From: Phaeacidiphilus oryzae TH49 | GTDB lineage: Bacteria > Actinomycetota > Actinomycetes > Streptomycetales > Streptomycetaceae | DNA: 64,000 nt | Assembly (NCBI RefSeq): GCF_000744815.1 | Contig: NZ_JQMQ01000005.1 | Coordinates: 4,286,055 to 4,350,054, forward strand | Reading direction: 5' to 3' | Shown here: piece after piece, positions 52,057 through 55,928 of the stretch | Numbering within the stretch: position 1 is the first letter of the stretch | How the letters are laid out: the number at the start of each line of letters is the position of its first letter | The notes under the pieces: generated by a model | The model's database searches: none | What the model was told of the DNA's origin: nothing | The model's input: the letters and a program-made list of their open reading frames with translations, nothing else | Program-made: the position numbers and the translations under genes

Positions 52057-52707
52057 GTGAATGAGACGGGGCGGGTCGAGGCGTTCTCGGACGGGGTGTT
52101 CGCGGTGGCGATCACCCTCCTGGCACTGGAGTTGAAGGTTCCGCAGCTGGTCGGCCAGGTGCAGGGCCGGCTGTGGGGGGAGCTGGCCCGGCAGTGGCCG
52201 GGTTTCGTGGCCTACGTGGTCAGCTTCCTGGTGATCGGGATCATGTGGGCCACCCACCACCAGGCGTTCGGCTGCATCGTGCGGGTGGACCGGGTGCTGG
52301 TCTTCCTGAACCTGCTGCTGCTCCTCGGGGTCGTGCTGCTGCCCTGGGCGGCCCAGCTGGTCGCCGAGTACCTGGACACCCCCCGCGGCGGGACCGTCGC
52401 CGCCGTCGTCTACAGCGGGGTGATGACCTATCACGCCTTCAGCTTCGGGCTGCTGTGGTGGTGGGTCGTCCGGCAGGGGAGCGGGCTGCTCGACCCCGCC
52501 CTGGACGACGACGCGGCACGGGCGATGCTGCCCCGGTTCCTGGTCGGTTCCCTGGTGTACCCGGCGCTGGTCGGGGTCTCGTTCCTCAGCGCGCTGGCCG
52601 CCGTCGTGCTGCACGGGGTGATGGCGGTCTACTACGCCTTCAACCAGCTGGCGGTACCGCGGCGGGAGGCGGAGGCGGAGGCGGGGGTTGGGCGGGGGGC
52701 CGGCTGA
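52057..52707 (+). CDS. TMEM175-family potassium channel-like membrane protein
   Basis: 216 residues from GTG 52057. The TMEM175 signature RVEAFSDGVFAVAITLLALEL forms the first membrane helix; its FSD residues mark bacterial TMEM175 (DUF1211) K+ channels. Five further hydrophobic segments follow (about 48-68, 80-105, 115-135, 160-180, 185-205), giving the six-helix layout of the bacterial family. It ends in a short charged tail and is followed at once by a perfect terminator. Channel activity is inferred from the family. Confidence 0.9.
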   Translation: MNETGRVEAFSDGVFAVAITLLALELKVPQLVGQVQGRLWGELARQWPGFVAYVVSFLVIGIMWATHHQAFGCIVRVDRVLVFLNLLLLLGVVLLPWAAQLVAEYLDTPRGGTVAAVVYSGVMTYHAFSFGLLWWWVVRQGSGLLDPALDDDAARAMLPRFLVGSLVYPALVGVSFLSALAAVVLHGVMAVYYAFNQLAVPRREAEAEAGVGRGAG

Positions 52708-52718
52708 AGACGCAAAGG

Positions 52719-52754
52719 GCAAAGGGCCCCGCGGGGGAGGGCGGGGCCCTTTGC
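52719..52754 (+). terminator. Intrinsic terminator after the TMEM175 gene
   Basis: A perfect 14-bp stem (52719-52732 with 52741-52754) encloses an 8-nt G-rich loop. The right arm ends CCCTTTGC. Confidence 0.85.
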
Positions 52755-53566
52755 TCAGCAGCCGGCGTCAGGGCCGCGCCGGCGCTGCGGAAACGGCGTC
52801 GGGGGAGGAACGCCGTTGATGTGGCCTGCGGTCGGGCGTCGAGCTGTGGTGGTGCCGTACAGCGGTTGTCGTCCTGCAGGGGGCGTGCGCGGGGCGCTAC
52901 GCGCCGCTGAGCGGAGATGCGACGGACCGTTCGGTTACTGAGTGTGCGTAACGCCTACCGCGGAACCCGTCGATCGTCTTCTCTGAACCCCCGGTTCGGG
53001 ACACCCTCCCCGTGCCCGCAGTCCGCCCCTGTAACCAGCATCGTGCTCGCCCGAGGGCCCTCTGTGCAACCCATTCGACGCATACCGGCATAGTCGTTTT
53101 TCCCTCCGCGGATCGGAGGGGGCGGTCAACGACCTTGGTGGAAAGTAAAGTTAAGGTGACGCTCCGCATTCGGCGGGCGGCGGGTAGTGAAAGCCGCGGC
53201 GTGCGCCGGGGCCGGTCCAGGAGAAACGTCCCGGCTGGTGAGAGGGGGCGGACCGCCCCGGGATCCGGGGTGTCGGGGGCAGCCGGCCCGAGGCGTCCCT
53301 CGGGACGGCCACCCCGTCCACCCAGTCGTGACCGGGCCGCTGTCCCCTGCCGTCCGGACACTGCGCCGTTGCGAGGTCCCACGGCACGCGCCAACGTGCC
53401 TCATCGCTTCGGCGGACTGTGTTGTGCTCCACGCGTGGTTGGTGCGCCGCGGTCCCCGTGTCTGGCCGACACGGCTCTCGGTGCGGTCATGTGAACCAAC
53501 GATCCGCCGGGGAGCTGGTCACGCGGAAGCCGTGCTGCCGTACGGGTGAAACCTTTCGCCGGACGG
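52755..53566. other. Long region without a supportable gene
   Basis: About 810 nt. Several open frames exist on both strands, but none has a plausible start with a ribosome-binding site, a recognisable product or normal codon bias. An AT-richer patch (about 53138-53158, GGAAAGTAAAGTTAAGGTGA) stands out. CGGATCGG-type inverted repeats lie near 53105. It may hold a promoter for upstream initiation of the aroQ transcript or a non-coding RNA. Confidence 0.5.
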
Positions 53567-53635
53567 CTCGGGGCCGGTCTCGGGGCCGGTCTCGGGCCCG
53601 GCTCGGAGCAGGTCTCGGGCCCGCCTCGGGGAGGT
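53567..53635 (+). repeat. Six direct repeats of 11-12 bp upstream of the aroQ leader
   Basis: Units of the form CTCGGGGCCGGT start at 53567, 53579, 53591, 53602, 53614 and 53625. Lengths run 12, 12, 11, 12, 11, 11, i.e. about one DNA turn each. They occupy the -35 region and upstream of the TATACT box. Probably a multi-site operator. Confidence 0.75.
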
Positions 53636-53640
53636 GCGGC

Positions 53641-53646
53641 TATACT
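53641..53646 (+). promoter_or_regulatory. -10 box of the aroQ leader transcript
   Basis: TATACT is a near-perfect -10 hexamer, 7 nt upstream of the leader-peptide ATG, so transcription should begin at or within a base or so of that codon. There is no recognisable -35; the direct repeats occupy its place, which suggests dependence on an activator. Confidence 0.65.
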
Positions 53647-53653
53647 CGGGCGC

Positions 53654-53722
53654 ATGTTCAGCACGGCTTACTTCTTTAGCTATGGCGCCGGAGGCTCCGG
53701 TCGCCATGGTGATGCCGCCTGA
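53654..53722 (+). CDS. Putative leader peptide of chorismate mutase (aromatic-rich, 22 residues)
   Basis: ATG 53654 to TGA 53722 encodes MFSTAYFFSYGAGGSGRHGD followed by two alanines. Five of the first ten residues are Phe or Tyr, the end products of the pathway that chorismate mutase opens. The mRNA appears leaderless. A hairpin (53682-53707) lies inside the second half of the ORF, starting at Tyr10, and a terminator-like hairpin (53746-53775) follows 23 nt after the stop. This layout matches ribosome-mediated attenuation, as in E. coli pheL and Streptomyces trp leaders. Not experimentally known to me; the assignment is inference. Confidence 0.65.
   Translation: MFSTAYFFSYGAGGSGRHGDAA
53682..53707 (+). 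other. Leader hairpin within the aromatic-rich ORF
   Basis: ATGGCG-CCGGA (53682-53692) pairs with TCCGG-T-CGCCAT (53696-53707): 11 bp, one bulged T, 3-nt loop. A ribosome stalled on codons 6-10 would cover its 5' arm, as expected of a 1:2 pause hairpin. Confidence 0.55.
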
Positions 53723-53745
53723 ACAGATCCACACAGGCTTCACTC

Positions 53746-53775
53746 AGCGCCCTGGGCCCACCGGCCCGGGGCGCT
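53746..53775 (+). terminator. Attenuator hairpin upstream of aroQ
   Basis: A 13-bp stem with one T-G wobble (53746-53758 with 53763-53775) and a 4-nt loop is followed by GTCCGTTTC. It lies between the leader peptide and aroQ (ATG 53839). Confidence 0.6.
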
Positions 53776-53838
53776 GTCCGTTTCACGGCGCCGGCGGCCG
53801 GTGCGATCCGGGGCTCCCCGACAAGGAGACCGACTGCC

Positions 53839-54162
53839 ATGAGTACCGAACTGGTCCCGACCCAGCCGAACGCCCGCCCGGAGACCGGGGTGCGCGCCGA
53901 GGCGCCGGACGCGGCCGCCGCGGAGGCGCTGATCGCCCAGGCGCGCGAGCGGATCGACGCGCTCGACGGCGAACTGCTCCGGATCGTGAAGGAGCGGATG
54001 GCGGTCTCGGCGCGGGTTCAGCGGGCCCGGATCGCCACCGGCGGGCCGCGCCTCTCGCTGGCCCGCGAGCAGCAGATCCTGGCCCGCTTCCACGCCGAAC
54101 TCGGCCGGGCCGGTACGGAGCTGGGGATGCTGCTGCTGGAGCTGTCCCGCGGGCGGGCGTGA
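53839..54162 (+). CDS. aroQ: Chorismate mutase (AroQ type)
   Basis: Rearranges chorismate to prephenate, committing it to Phe and Tyr. The 107 residues have a disordered N-terminus (1-25) and an all-helical AroQ domain. IDALDGELLRIVKERMAVSARVQRAR corresponds to helix 1 with the substrate-binding Arg and Lys, and LAREQQILARFHAEL to helix 2. ATG 53839 follows AAGGAG. It has no prephenate dehydratase or dehydrogenase domain fused. The upstream leader region suggests control by aromatic amino acid supply; guaA follows 143 bp downstream. Confidence 0.94.
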   Translation: MSTELVPTQPNARPETGVRAEAPDAAAAEALIAQARERIDALDGELLRIVKERMAVSARVQRARIATGGPRLSLAREQQILARFHAELGRAGTELGMLLLELSRGRA

Positions 54163-54305
54163 GCGCGCGGGCGCGTGGCGGAGCGGGCGAGCCCGGCGGG
54201 GCGCGCGGGCGCCGGGCCGCCCGGGTGGTGCGGAAACCGGGTTTCACGGGGCGGCGGTTAGGATGAGGGGGCTCCCATTGTTTTCGCCGGAAGGCCGCCC
54301 CGCCA

Positions 54306-55928
54306 GTGTCATCAGCATCAGCGACCGCCGACTCCGTGGACCGCCCGGACGCGCCGGGATCCCCCGCCACCGTGCTCGTGGTGGACTTCGGCGCCCAGTA
54401 CGCCCAGCTCATCGCGCGCCGGGTGCGTGAGGCGCGGATCTACAGCGAGATCGTCCCGCACGACATGCCCGCTGCCGAGATGCTGGCCAAGCGTCCCGCC
54501 GCGATCATCCTCTCCGGCGGCCCGTCGTCGGTCAACGACCCGGGCACCCCGGCCGTCGAGCGCGAGCTGCTGGAGGCCGGAGTGCCGGTCCTCGGCATCT
54601 GCTACGGCTTCCAGGCCATGGCGGTCGCGCTCGGCGGCACCGTTCCGGCGACCGGGAAGCGCGAGTACGGGCGGACCGGGCTGACCGTGTCCCGCCCCGG
54701 CTCCACCCTCTTCGAGGGCACCCCGGACGACCAGGCGGTGTGGATGTCGCACGGCGACTCGGTCGGCGAGGCGCCGGCCGGGTTCACCGTCACCGGCTCC
54801 ACCCCGGGCGCCCCGATCGCCGCCTTCGAGTGCGACGAGAAGCGGCTGTACGGCGTGCAGTACCACCCCGAGGTGCTCCACTCCACCCACGGCCAGCAGG
54901 TGCTGGAGCACTTCCTCTACCGGGGCGCCGGGCTCGCCCCCGACTGGACCACGGAGAACGTGGTCGAGGAGTCGATCGAGGCGGTGCGCGCCCAGGTCGG
55001 CGGCAAGAAGGCGATCTGCGGGCTCTCCGGCGGGGTCGACTCGGCGGTCGCCGCCGCGCTCGTCCAGCGGGCCATCGGCGACCAGCTGACCTGCGTCTTC
55101 GTCGACCACGGGCTGCTCCGCAAGGGCGAGGCCGAGCAGGTCGAGAAGGACTTCGTGGCCGCCACCGGCGTCAAGCTCAAGGTGGTGGACGCGCAGCAGC
55201 GCTTCCTGGACGCGCTGGCCGGGGTCAGCGACCCGGAGCAGAAGCGCAAGATCATCGGCCGTGAGTTCATCCGGGTCTTCGAGCAGGCCGCGGCCGAGGT
55301 CGTGGCCGAGGAGGGCGGCGTCGGCGGCGAGGGCGCGGTGGAGTTCCTGGTGCAGGGCACCCTCTACCCGGACGTCGTCGAGTCCGGCGGCGGCACCGGC
55401 ACCGCGAACATCAAGTCCCACCACAACGTCGGCGGGCTGCCCGAGGACCTGCAGTTCCAGCTGGTCGAGCCGCTGCGCCGGCTCTTCAAGGACGAGGTGC
55501 GGAAGGTCGGCGAGGAGCTCGGCCTGCCGGCCGAGATCGTCTGGCGGCAGCCGTTCCCCGGCCCGGGGCTGGGCATCCGGATCGTCGGCGAGGTCACCAG
55601 GGACCGCCTGGACCTGCTGCGCGAGGCCGACGCGATCGCCCGCGAGGAGCTGACCGCGGCCGGTCTGGACCGGGAGATCTGGCAGTGCCCGGTGGTGCTG
55701 CTGGCCGACGTCCGCTCGGTGGGCGTGCAGGGCGACGGCCGGACCTACGGGCACCCGATCGTGCTGCGCCCGGTCTCCTCCGAGGACGCGATGACCGCGG
55801 ACTGGACCCGGCTGCCGTACGAGGTGCTGAGCAAGATCTCGACCCGGATCACCAACGAGGTGGCCGACGTCAACCGCGTGGTGCTGGACGTGACCAGCAA
55901 GCCGCCGGGGACCATCGAGTGGGAGTAG
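54306..55928 (+). CDS. guaA: GMP synthase (glutamine-hydrolysing)
   Basis: Aminates XMP to GMP. 540 residues from GTG 54306; no strong ribosome-binding site. The glutaminase domain (about 20-215) has ILSGGPSSV, the nucleophile Cys99 in [10 protein letters not shown], and YHPEV with the catalytic His/Glu. The ATP pyrophosphatase loop is [14 protein letters not shown], and the C-terminal dimerisation domain ends [15 protein letters not shown]. It completes the guanine branch with guaB at 35.2 kb. Confidence 0.97.

Follow-up and report, generated by a model that had tools for sequence, protein, structure and literature searches.

The nearest known case to the element described here is the aroR-aroF leader of Corynebacterium glutamicum, which was reportedly treated by Neshat et al. 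2014 and which serves another gene. In the accessible portions of two sources the aroR leader of aroF, a DAHP synthase gene, is described as acting by ribosome-mediated attenuation in response to Phe limitation and not to Tyr; like our element, it is found in an actinobacterium, has both Phe and Tyr codons in a leader ORF and stands ahead of a gene of the aromatic pathway (PMC11802643; PMC7356990). By description the two differ in place: aroR lies upstream of a DAHP synthase gene and serves the first step of the shikimate pathway, whereas our element stands at the chorismate branch, 5' of the chorismate mutase gene aroQ. The pheL-pheA system of Escherichia coli combines a Shine-Dalgarno-led leader that reads Phe only with a fused enzyme, and our element differs from it in a predicted leaderless ORF, in having both Phe and Tyr codons and in a monofunctional chorismate mutase. 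The available part of one of these sources describes pheL as a leader peptide responding to charged tRNA-Phe before pheA, likewise a gene with chorismate mutase activity (chorismate mutase-prephenate dehydratase) (PMC11802643). The trpL-trpE leader of Streptomyces, as far as the accessible text of two further papers goes, shares with our element the leaderless ORF, the alternatives of antiterminator and GC-rich terminator and a position at the other chorismate branch, but it senses Trp and differs in sequence and gene (PMC8079986; PMC1262725).

Surveys of leader peptides have listed related elements for other pathways or other organisms. The reannotation of S. lividans gives, in its available sections, eight leader peptides, most of them leaderless and none for Phe or Tyr (PMC8079986), and Seliverstov et al. 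2005, in the part accessible to us, report trp, cys, leu/ilv and ileS elements upstream of actinobacterial amino-acid genes and no conserved structures for other pathways (PMC1262725). A further likeness is with uORFs that have been predicted, with Phe (or Phe/Tyr) codons, 5' of genes of the shikimate pathway: uORFC-13-1, upstream of aroF and so of another gene, is given in the available text for Acholeplasma and environmental sequences only (PMC8632094), and two shikimate-gene candidates in Fig. 6b of PMC6429828, as far as accessible, come from a study of five non-actinobacterial genomes. The words chorismate and phenylalanine are absent from the main text of a study of mycobacterial leaderless transcripts and of two M. 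tuberculosis papers (PMC4633059, PMC13236596, PMC11133741), and a 3'-end study of Streptomyces clavuligerus describes, in its accessible part, 96 novel premature transcripts, which could include the aroQ leader RNA (PMC8269248). Our search of open-licence PubMed Central articles, without their supplements, found no report of an aroQ leader in actinomycetes; the preliminary description of this DNA had likewise known of none for actinobacterial aroQ, and such an attenuator is apparently unreported in the searchable open papers.

We studied this element in a window of 64,000 nucleotides of Phaeacidiphilus oryzae TH49, meaning the whole stretch of DNA that was analysed, and the features found there are collected in Table 1. 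Translation agrees with the earlier claim that a 22-codon ORF with Phe2, Tyr6, Phe7, Phe8 and Tyr10 precedes aroQ, whose product was the sole match of the AroQ protein search in its own genome and which is followed downstream by guaA. A -10-like hexamer lies seven bases before the leader ATG, and the transcript is therefore predicted to be leaderless, with its 5' end at or adjoining that ATG; a simple promoter scan found no promoter at the leader region. From sequence and computed folds, we consider that the 5' leader of aroQ is probably a ribosome-mediated transcription attenuator sensing charged tRNA-Phe and tRNA-Tyr, with a probability of roughly 0.86.

Table 1. Features of the putative aroQ attenuator in the window (positions counted from its first base).
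Feature	Position	Strand	Evidence or detail
-10-like element TATACT	53641..53646	+	sequence; 7 bases from leader ATG
Leader peptide ORF MFSTAYFFSYGAGGSGRHGDAA	53654..53722	+	sequence, translation; 22 codons plus TGA; kept in relatives
Putative regulatory codons	Phe8 53675-53677; Tyr10 53681-53683	+	Tyr6 TAC, Phe7 TTC, Phe8 TTT, Tyr10 TAT
Hairpin H1 (strands 1:2)	53680..53709	+	53680-53692 with 53696-53709, 13 pairs, one bulge
Antiterminator (strands 2:3), predicted	53693..53758	+	-26.5 kcal/mol, RNA 53690 to 53761
Antiterminator, 5' segments	53693-53697, 53699-53700, 53702-53704, 53708-53712, 53714-53716		
Antiterminator, 3' partners, respectively	53754-53758, 53751-53752, 53747-53749, 53740-53744, 53736-53738		
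Hairpin H2	53717..53738	+	53717-53721 with 53734-53738, across leader stop codon
Leader stop TGA	53720-53722	+	
Terminator-like hairpin H3 (strands 3:4)	53745..53776	+	53745-53758 with 53763-53776, 14 pairs
Shine-Dalgarno-like AGGAG of aroQ	53824..53828	+	sequence; outside switching hairpins
aroQ, chorismate mutase type II, 107 aa, proposed regulated gene	53839..54162	+	Pfam CM_2, E 1.5e-9

For the preliminary description, relatives that did not conserve the ORF or its aromatic codons would have refuted the attenuator; in fact the relatives do conserve them. The AroQ protein search gave a match in 48 of 61 genomes (its own and 60 relatives), and almost all of the loci read have, 5' of the match, an ORF encoding MFSxxxFxFTYGTGWSGCHGxAV or a peptide close to it; Streptomyces iranensis, S. 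hygroscopicus and Actinacidiphila soli all have the leader. When 296 genomes of the class were searched with a profile, 91 had a chorismate mutase match, and we scanned the fetched loci for a Tyr codon, or its equivalent, placed at a hairpin, with a Phe codon at most three codons away and with a start and a stop codon. Leaders in which Phe codons, usually together with Tyr codons, adjoin a hairpin were found in 119 of the 137 fetched chorismate mutase loci, at least six of which are second fetches of genomes already counted, and these leaders come from eleven families of the class. By group, the leader is present in f1 (64/64), f2 (1/1), f3 (13/13), f18 (15/17), f16 (2/3), f14 (1/1), f29 (1/1), f33 (1/1), f35 (2/2) and f44 (1/1) and in genus g24 of f6 (17/18), a genus which we take, as a guess, to be Mycobacterium; the 119th leader (L051) comes from the L081 genome, fetched a second time. 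With a limit on hairpin energy, and one of the 137 loci left out for its short upstream region at a contig end, the scan found leaders in 119/136 loci on the forward strand, in 0/136 reverse complements and in 0.6/136 dinucleotide shuffles. An independent scan for clusters of F and Y gave 51/86 forward and 0/86 reverse.

The 18 leader-negative loci (L052, L096, L097, L100-L105, L115, L121, L130 and L133-L138) are of several kinds: L115 and L121 have the Phe-Tyr codons and the hairpin but no leader ORF by the rule used, L130 is cut by a contig end, and paralogues or distant matches have the leader in none of seven cases. Within f6, the genera g47, g83 and g87 carry a chorismate mutase without the leader (L097 and L100-L105, 0/7), beside the 17/18 of g24 in the same family, and this absence would be a loss or replacement of the leader. 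We also found a -10-like hexamer of the form NAnnnT, with at least three of six matches to TATAAT, before the start codon of 116 of the 119 leaders, compared with 48 of 351 control positions, a count which is favoured by the fact that the start codon was picked among candidates by this same criterion. Among 117 hexamers found, 116 lie at 6 or 7 bases from the start codon.

The element is specific for aroQ. A covariance model built from 59 sequences of the family, out of 74 distinct ones (those of other families being left out), has one strong match in its own genome (E 2.2e-16, the next being 0.11), and 105 strong matches in 150 genomes of the family (E ≤ 1.8e-9, the next being 2.5e-5). Each of the 105 is followed, 83-351 bases downstream and on the same strand, by a chorismate mutase match. 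Conversely, every chorismate mutase profile match with E ≤ 1e-27 has the element. Of the 14 of 119 matches that do not, none reaches E 1e-26, and one is part of a match that is frame-split in two halves, where the element stands with the other half. In its own genome, the 1500 bases upstream of each match to pheA, to two DAHP synthases and to pheS contained no Phe/Tyr leader. In genus g14 of the family (e.g. G013, G026, G346) the leader model gives no strong match. Among the 150 sampled genomes, just five of g14 have chorismate mutase matches, all of them weak (E 9e-26 or worse), and the main chorismate mutase of g14 must be of another kind.

The choice of codons near the hairpin also speaks for the attenuator. 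Among 110 distinct leaders the Phe codon nearest to the hairpin is UUU in 89 and UUC in 21, where the presence of a Phe codon is partly by construction, since the scan demanded it, and the choice of UUU is not. The codon at the base of the hairpin is UAU in 85, UAC in 20, CAG in four and CAU in one, and at least three of the CAG cases have a Tyr codon one place earlier. Both preferred codons are rare in the window, where UUU makes up 7 of 278 Phe codons and UAU 15 of 269 Tyr codons in a reference of 33 ORFs chosen by third-position GC. The best reading is that these two rare codons, UUU and UAU, would do most of the sensing of Phe and Tyr. Of the two amino acids, Phe probably gives the stronger signal, since two leaders (L014 and L038) are without a Tyr codon and aroR of Corynebacterium is said to answer to Phe and not to Tyr. 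One could suppose instead that what matters is the amino-acid sequence of the leader peptide, which would cause arrest while nascent or serve as a small functional protein, and that its codons do not sense supply; the end of the peptide is indeed well kept in many Streptomycetaceae (FTYGTGWSGCHG). Across families, however, the part after Tyr is wholly different (GTGWSGCHG, GYRSAVPVV, GYGPGSLAIVGC, GDRARSPLHR) while the hairpin at that place is kept, and the residues that are kept are Phe and Tyr, the products of the pathway, encoded mostly by UUU and UAU, which makes this explanation very improbable.

A sensing role for the codons would also agree with where they lie relative to the folds. The 185-nt stretch folds better than all of 200 dinucleotide shuffles (z -4.4). 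The hairpin that the preliminary description had placed exactly from Tyr10 with 11 bp is real, though it is longer and has a bulge (Table 1), and it starts one base 5' of the Tyr10 codon, which forms its base in the window. The 5' arm of H1 is thus placed to sit under a ribosome waiting at the Phe8 and Tyr10 codons, and the placement is the same in relatives. The terminator-like hairpin before aroQ is likewise real, with 14 pairs rather than the 13 first given; the U-tract 3' of it is weak (TCCGTTTC), as U-tracts after H3 are among the loci compared, and a simple terminator scan, which asks for a U-rich tail, found no site at the leader region. No H3 of any kind was found in 9 of the 119 leaders, and among the other 110 several of the hairpins chosen for loci outside the family are doubtful. 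Leaders L086, L087 and L092 keep the leader and H1, with H3 and the third strand not recognised, and are candidates for a readout without an intrinsic terminator.

The preliminary description had proposed a test of both hairpins for compensatory changes, and they show these at different depths, H3 within the family and H1 across families. For H3, 49 cells of the family alignment are changed on both sides of a pair, compared with 9.7 in shuffles (0/500 as high), and seven pairs have a double change, compared with 4.9 (26/500). Inside the family we looked for covariation of H1 and found none, H1 hardly varying there. Across ten families, in 22 chosen sequences whose cut offsets differ and of which at least three rows are misaligned (L041, L042, L045), H1 has 26 cells changed on both sides, compared with 10.5 in shuffles (0/500 as high), and 77.1% of its cells are paired, slid versions reaching 52.2% at most. 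With a shift of one column there are more doubly changed pairs (9 vs 6), yet fewer such cells (20 vs 26) and far fewer cells paired (39.2 vs 77.1%). A conserved structured RNA 5' of a biosynthetic gene could also be a metabolite-binding RNA or a protein-binding site that controls aroQ, with the ORF incidental. This we regard as the least probable explanation of all, as there was no Rfam match at gathering score in nine loci, the three matches obtained in E-value mode for window positions 52800-54600 all lie far below the gathering scores, the loop and arm sequences of H1 vary across families, and an in-frame Phe/Tyr ORF is kept at the expected transcript start.

A further point is whether the strands can switch. 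The preliminary description had doubted that they do so in the classic way, having seen by eye only the short pairing of CCGGT (53697-53701) with ACCGG (53760-53764). That pairing exists, but it is neither the sole candidate nor needed, and we set it aside for the longer, interrupted pairing of 53693-53716 with 53736-53758, which joins the loop and 3' arm of H1 to the 5' arm of H3; folding and strand swaps show the classic 1:2, 2:3 and 3:4 alternatives to be present. RNA was folded from beyond a ribosome at the Tyr codon to the H3 loop. In all of 77 sequences (loci with a score of at least 33 among the 110 with H3, without L007, L042, L051, L069, L081, L108, L109, L110 and L114 but with some second fetches, e.g. 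L004/L062), the pairing of the H3 5' arm with the H1 loop and 3' arm is above the mean of 60 base shuffles of the region, with 12.3 pairs on average compared with 8.5, and 28 of the 77 reach p < 0.05 individually. The window's own antiterminator has p = 0.17-0.22, and the single-sequence support is modest. When strands were exchanged among 23 chosen representatives of 22 genera, own pairings were stronger than swapped ones (-21.3 vs -19.1 kcal/mol; 22/23 better, L093 being the one that pairs worse than its swaps), with 0 of 20000 permutations as good and p 0.00125 for the 16 representatives of the family, values which, like those of the shuffles, ignore shared ancestry and hence are too small, so that we take them as support and not as proof.

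H2, which lies across the stop codon, is proposed to be the apical stem of the antiterminator, although the minimum-energy antiterminator fold of the window has 53714-53716 with 53736-53738 in place of the H2 pairs. An exact stem of five pairs at the stop codon is present in 44 of 105 distinct leaders, compared with 17.3 expected from shuffles, when counted sequence by sequence at the stop codon, the MAFFT alignment being unusable here because the 3' arm of H2 is misaligned between types. The stems, mostly in the family, include GUCUG/CAGAC, GCUUG/CAAGC, GCCUG/CAGGC and GCAUG/CAUGC, and exact ones are seldom found outside it.

The folds also indicate what the order of events would have to be. 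In the window, only H3 forms with the ribosome at the stop codon, and in the full-length RNA H3 wins even with H1 blocked, so the order of folding must matter. For many members of the family, a stalled ribosome makes little difference to the stability of the antiterminator (10.5 pairs unblocked and 12.3 stalled, on average), and H1 would therefore have to act by folding first. The switch is sharper in the tested f6 loci (14 loci from 13 genomes, out of 18, the other four being without a recognisable third strand), which have 10.9 pairs with the H1 5' arm covered, 3.1 with it free and 8.4 in shuffles.

We hypothesise that transcription begins at or next to the leader ATG, with a ribosome following directly behind RNA polymerase. 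With ample Phe and Tyr this ribosome would reach the stop codon and mask the 3' arm of H1 and the H2 region; no antiterminator could then form, H3 would fold and transcription would terminate before aroQ. If Phe (or Tyr) became short, the ribosome would pause at Phe7/Phe8 or Tyr10 and mask the 5' arm of H1, and the freed loop and 3' arm of H1 could pair progressively, by way of the stop-codon stem, with the 5' arm of H3, so that the long antiterminator would be made before the 3' arm of H3 and aroQ would be transcribed. On RNA without translation, H1 would fold first and transcription would end at H3. As in attenuators of the trp and pheA type, codons for end products of the pathway stand in a short leader ORF and are placed such that a stalled ribosome would cover the 5' arm of H1, and a mutually exclusive 2:3 antiterminator emerges from computation. 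The 3:4 hairpin before aroQ, a candidate intrinsic terminator, is strong and covarying, but with a weak U-tract and no site in the terminator scan. The conserved ORF, the aromatic codons and the classic alternatives thus support the probable Phe/Tyr attenuator of the preliminary description, and from them we infer its action in the cell, namely stalling, termination and the relief of termination.

Termination is the weak point of this model; Rho or some other readout may be used, above all where a locus has no clear H3. In the broader form of this alternative, the same leader peptide and the same stalling would be read out by access of Rho or by translation of aroQ, and H3 would be a stable mRNA hairpin and nothing else. 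The weak U-tracts, the negative terminator scan and the f6 loci which have the leader and H1 without a clear H3 or third strand speak for it, whereas the H3 of the family is kept with covariation and its 5' arm matches strand 2. Moreover, the element stands at variable distances from the aroQ match (83-351 bases), and in the window none of the hairpins includes the Shine-Dalgarno-like sequence, which makes a direct masking of the start of aroQ unlikely. Altogether we regard this readout as unlikely, and favour transcription attenuation through H3.

If this reading of the locus is true, the aroQ attenuator would be the counterpart, on the Phe/Tyr branch, of the Trp attenuator, and common to eleven sampled actinomycete families, including Streptomyces. 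Chorismate is the point where the aromatic pathway splits, and in Streptomyces the Trp branch is described, in the accessible part of one source, as controlled by a Trp attenuator (PMC1262725). More tentatively, and at somewhat less than even odds, we suggest that one ancestral Phe/Tyr attenuator before aroQ predates the split of the sampled actinomycete families, that its aromatic codons, H1 and strand switching have persisted through changes in the terminator and in the remainder of the peptide, that it reads two amino acids in series by rare codons on a leaderless RNA, and that some lineages have moved to a readout without an intrinsic terminator. The set of aroQ leaders would then be a deep data set on attenuator evolution, and the leader itself a defined target for engineers of aromatic products; a direct test is possible with changes to two or three of its codons or to one helix.

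Other observations concern the surroundings of the leader ORF. Its first bases (53655-53661, UGUUCAG) are complementary to the stop-codon region (53719-53725, CUGAACA), some relatives hold a different matching pair (e.g. UGCUCA/UGAGCA), and such pairing could limit repeat translation of the finished leader RNA. Own pairs are better than swapped ones in 71 of 105 cases (-8.3 vs -6.9 kcal/mol), and we left this pairing out of the model, the signal being too weak and too easily explained by shared ancestry. Upstream, about 930 bases without an assigned gene (52708-53640) lie between a TMEM175-like gene (52057-52707) and the predicted leader promoter, and directly 5' of the latter, at 53564-53635, is an array of imperfect units of 12 or 23 bases (CTCGGGGCCGGT).
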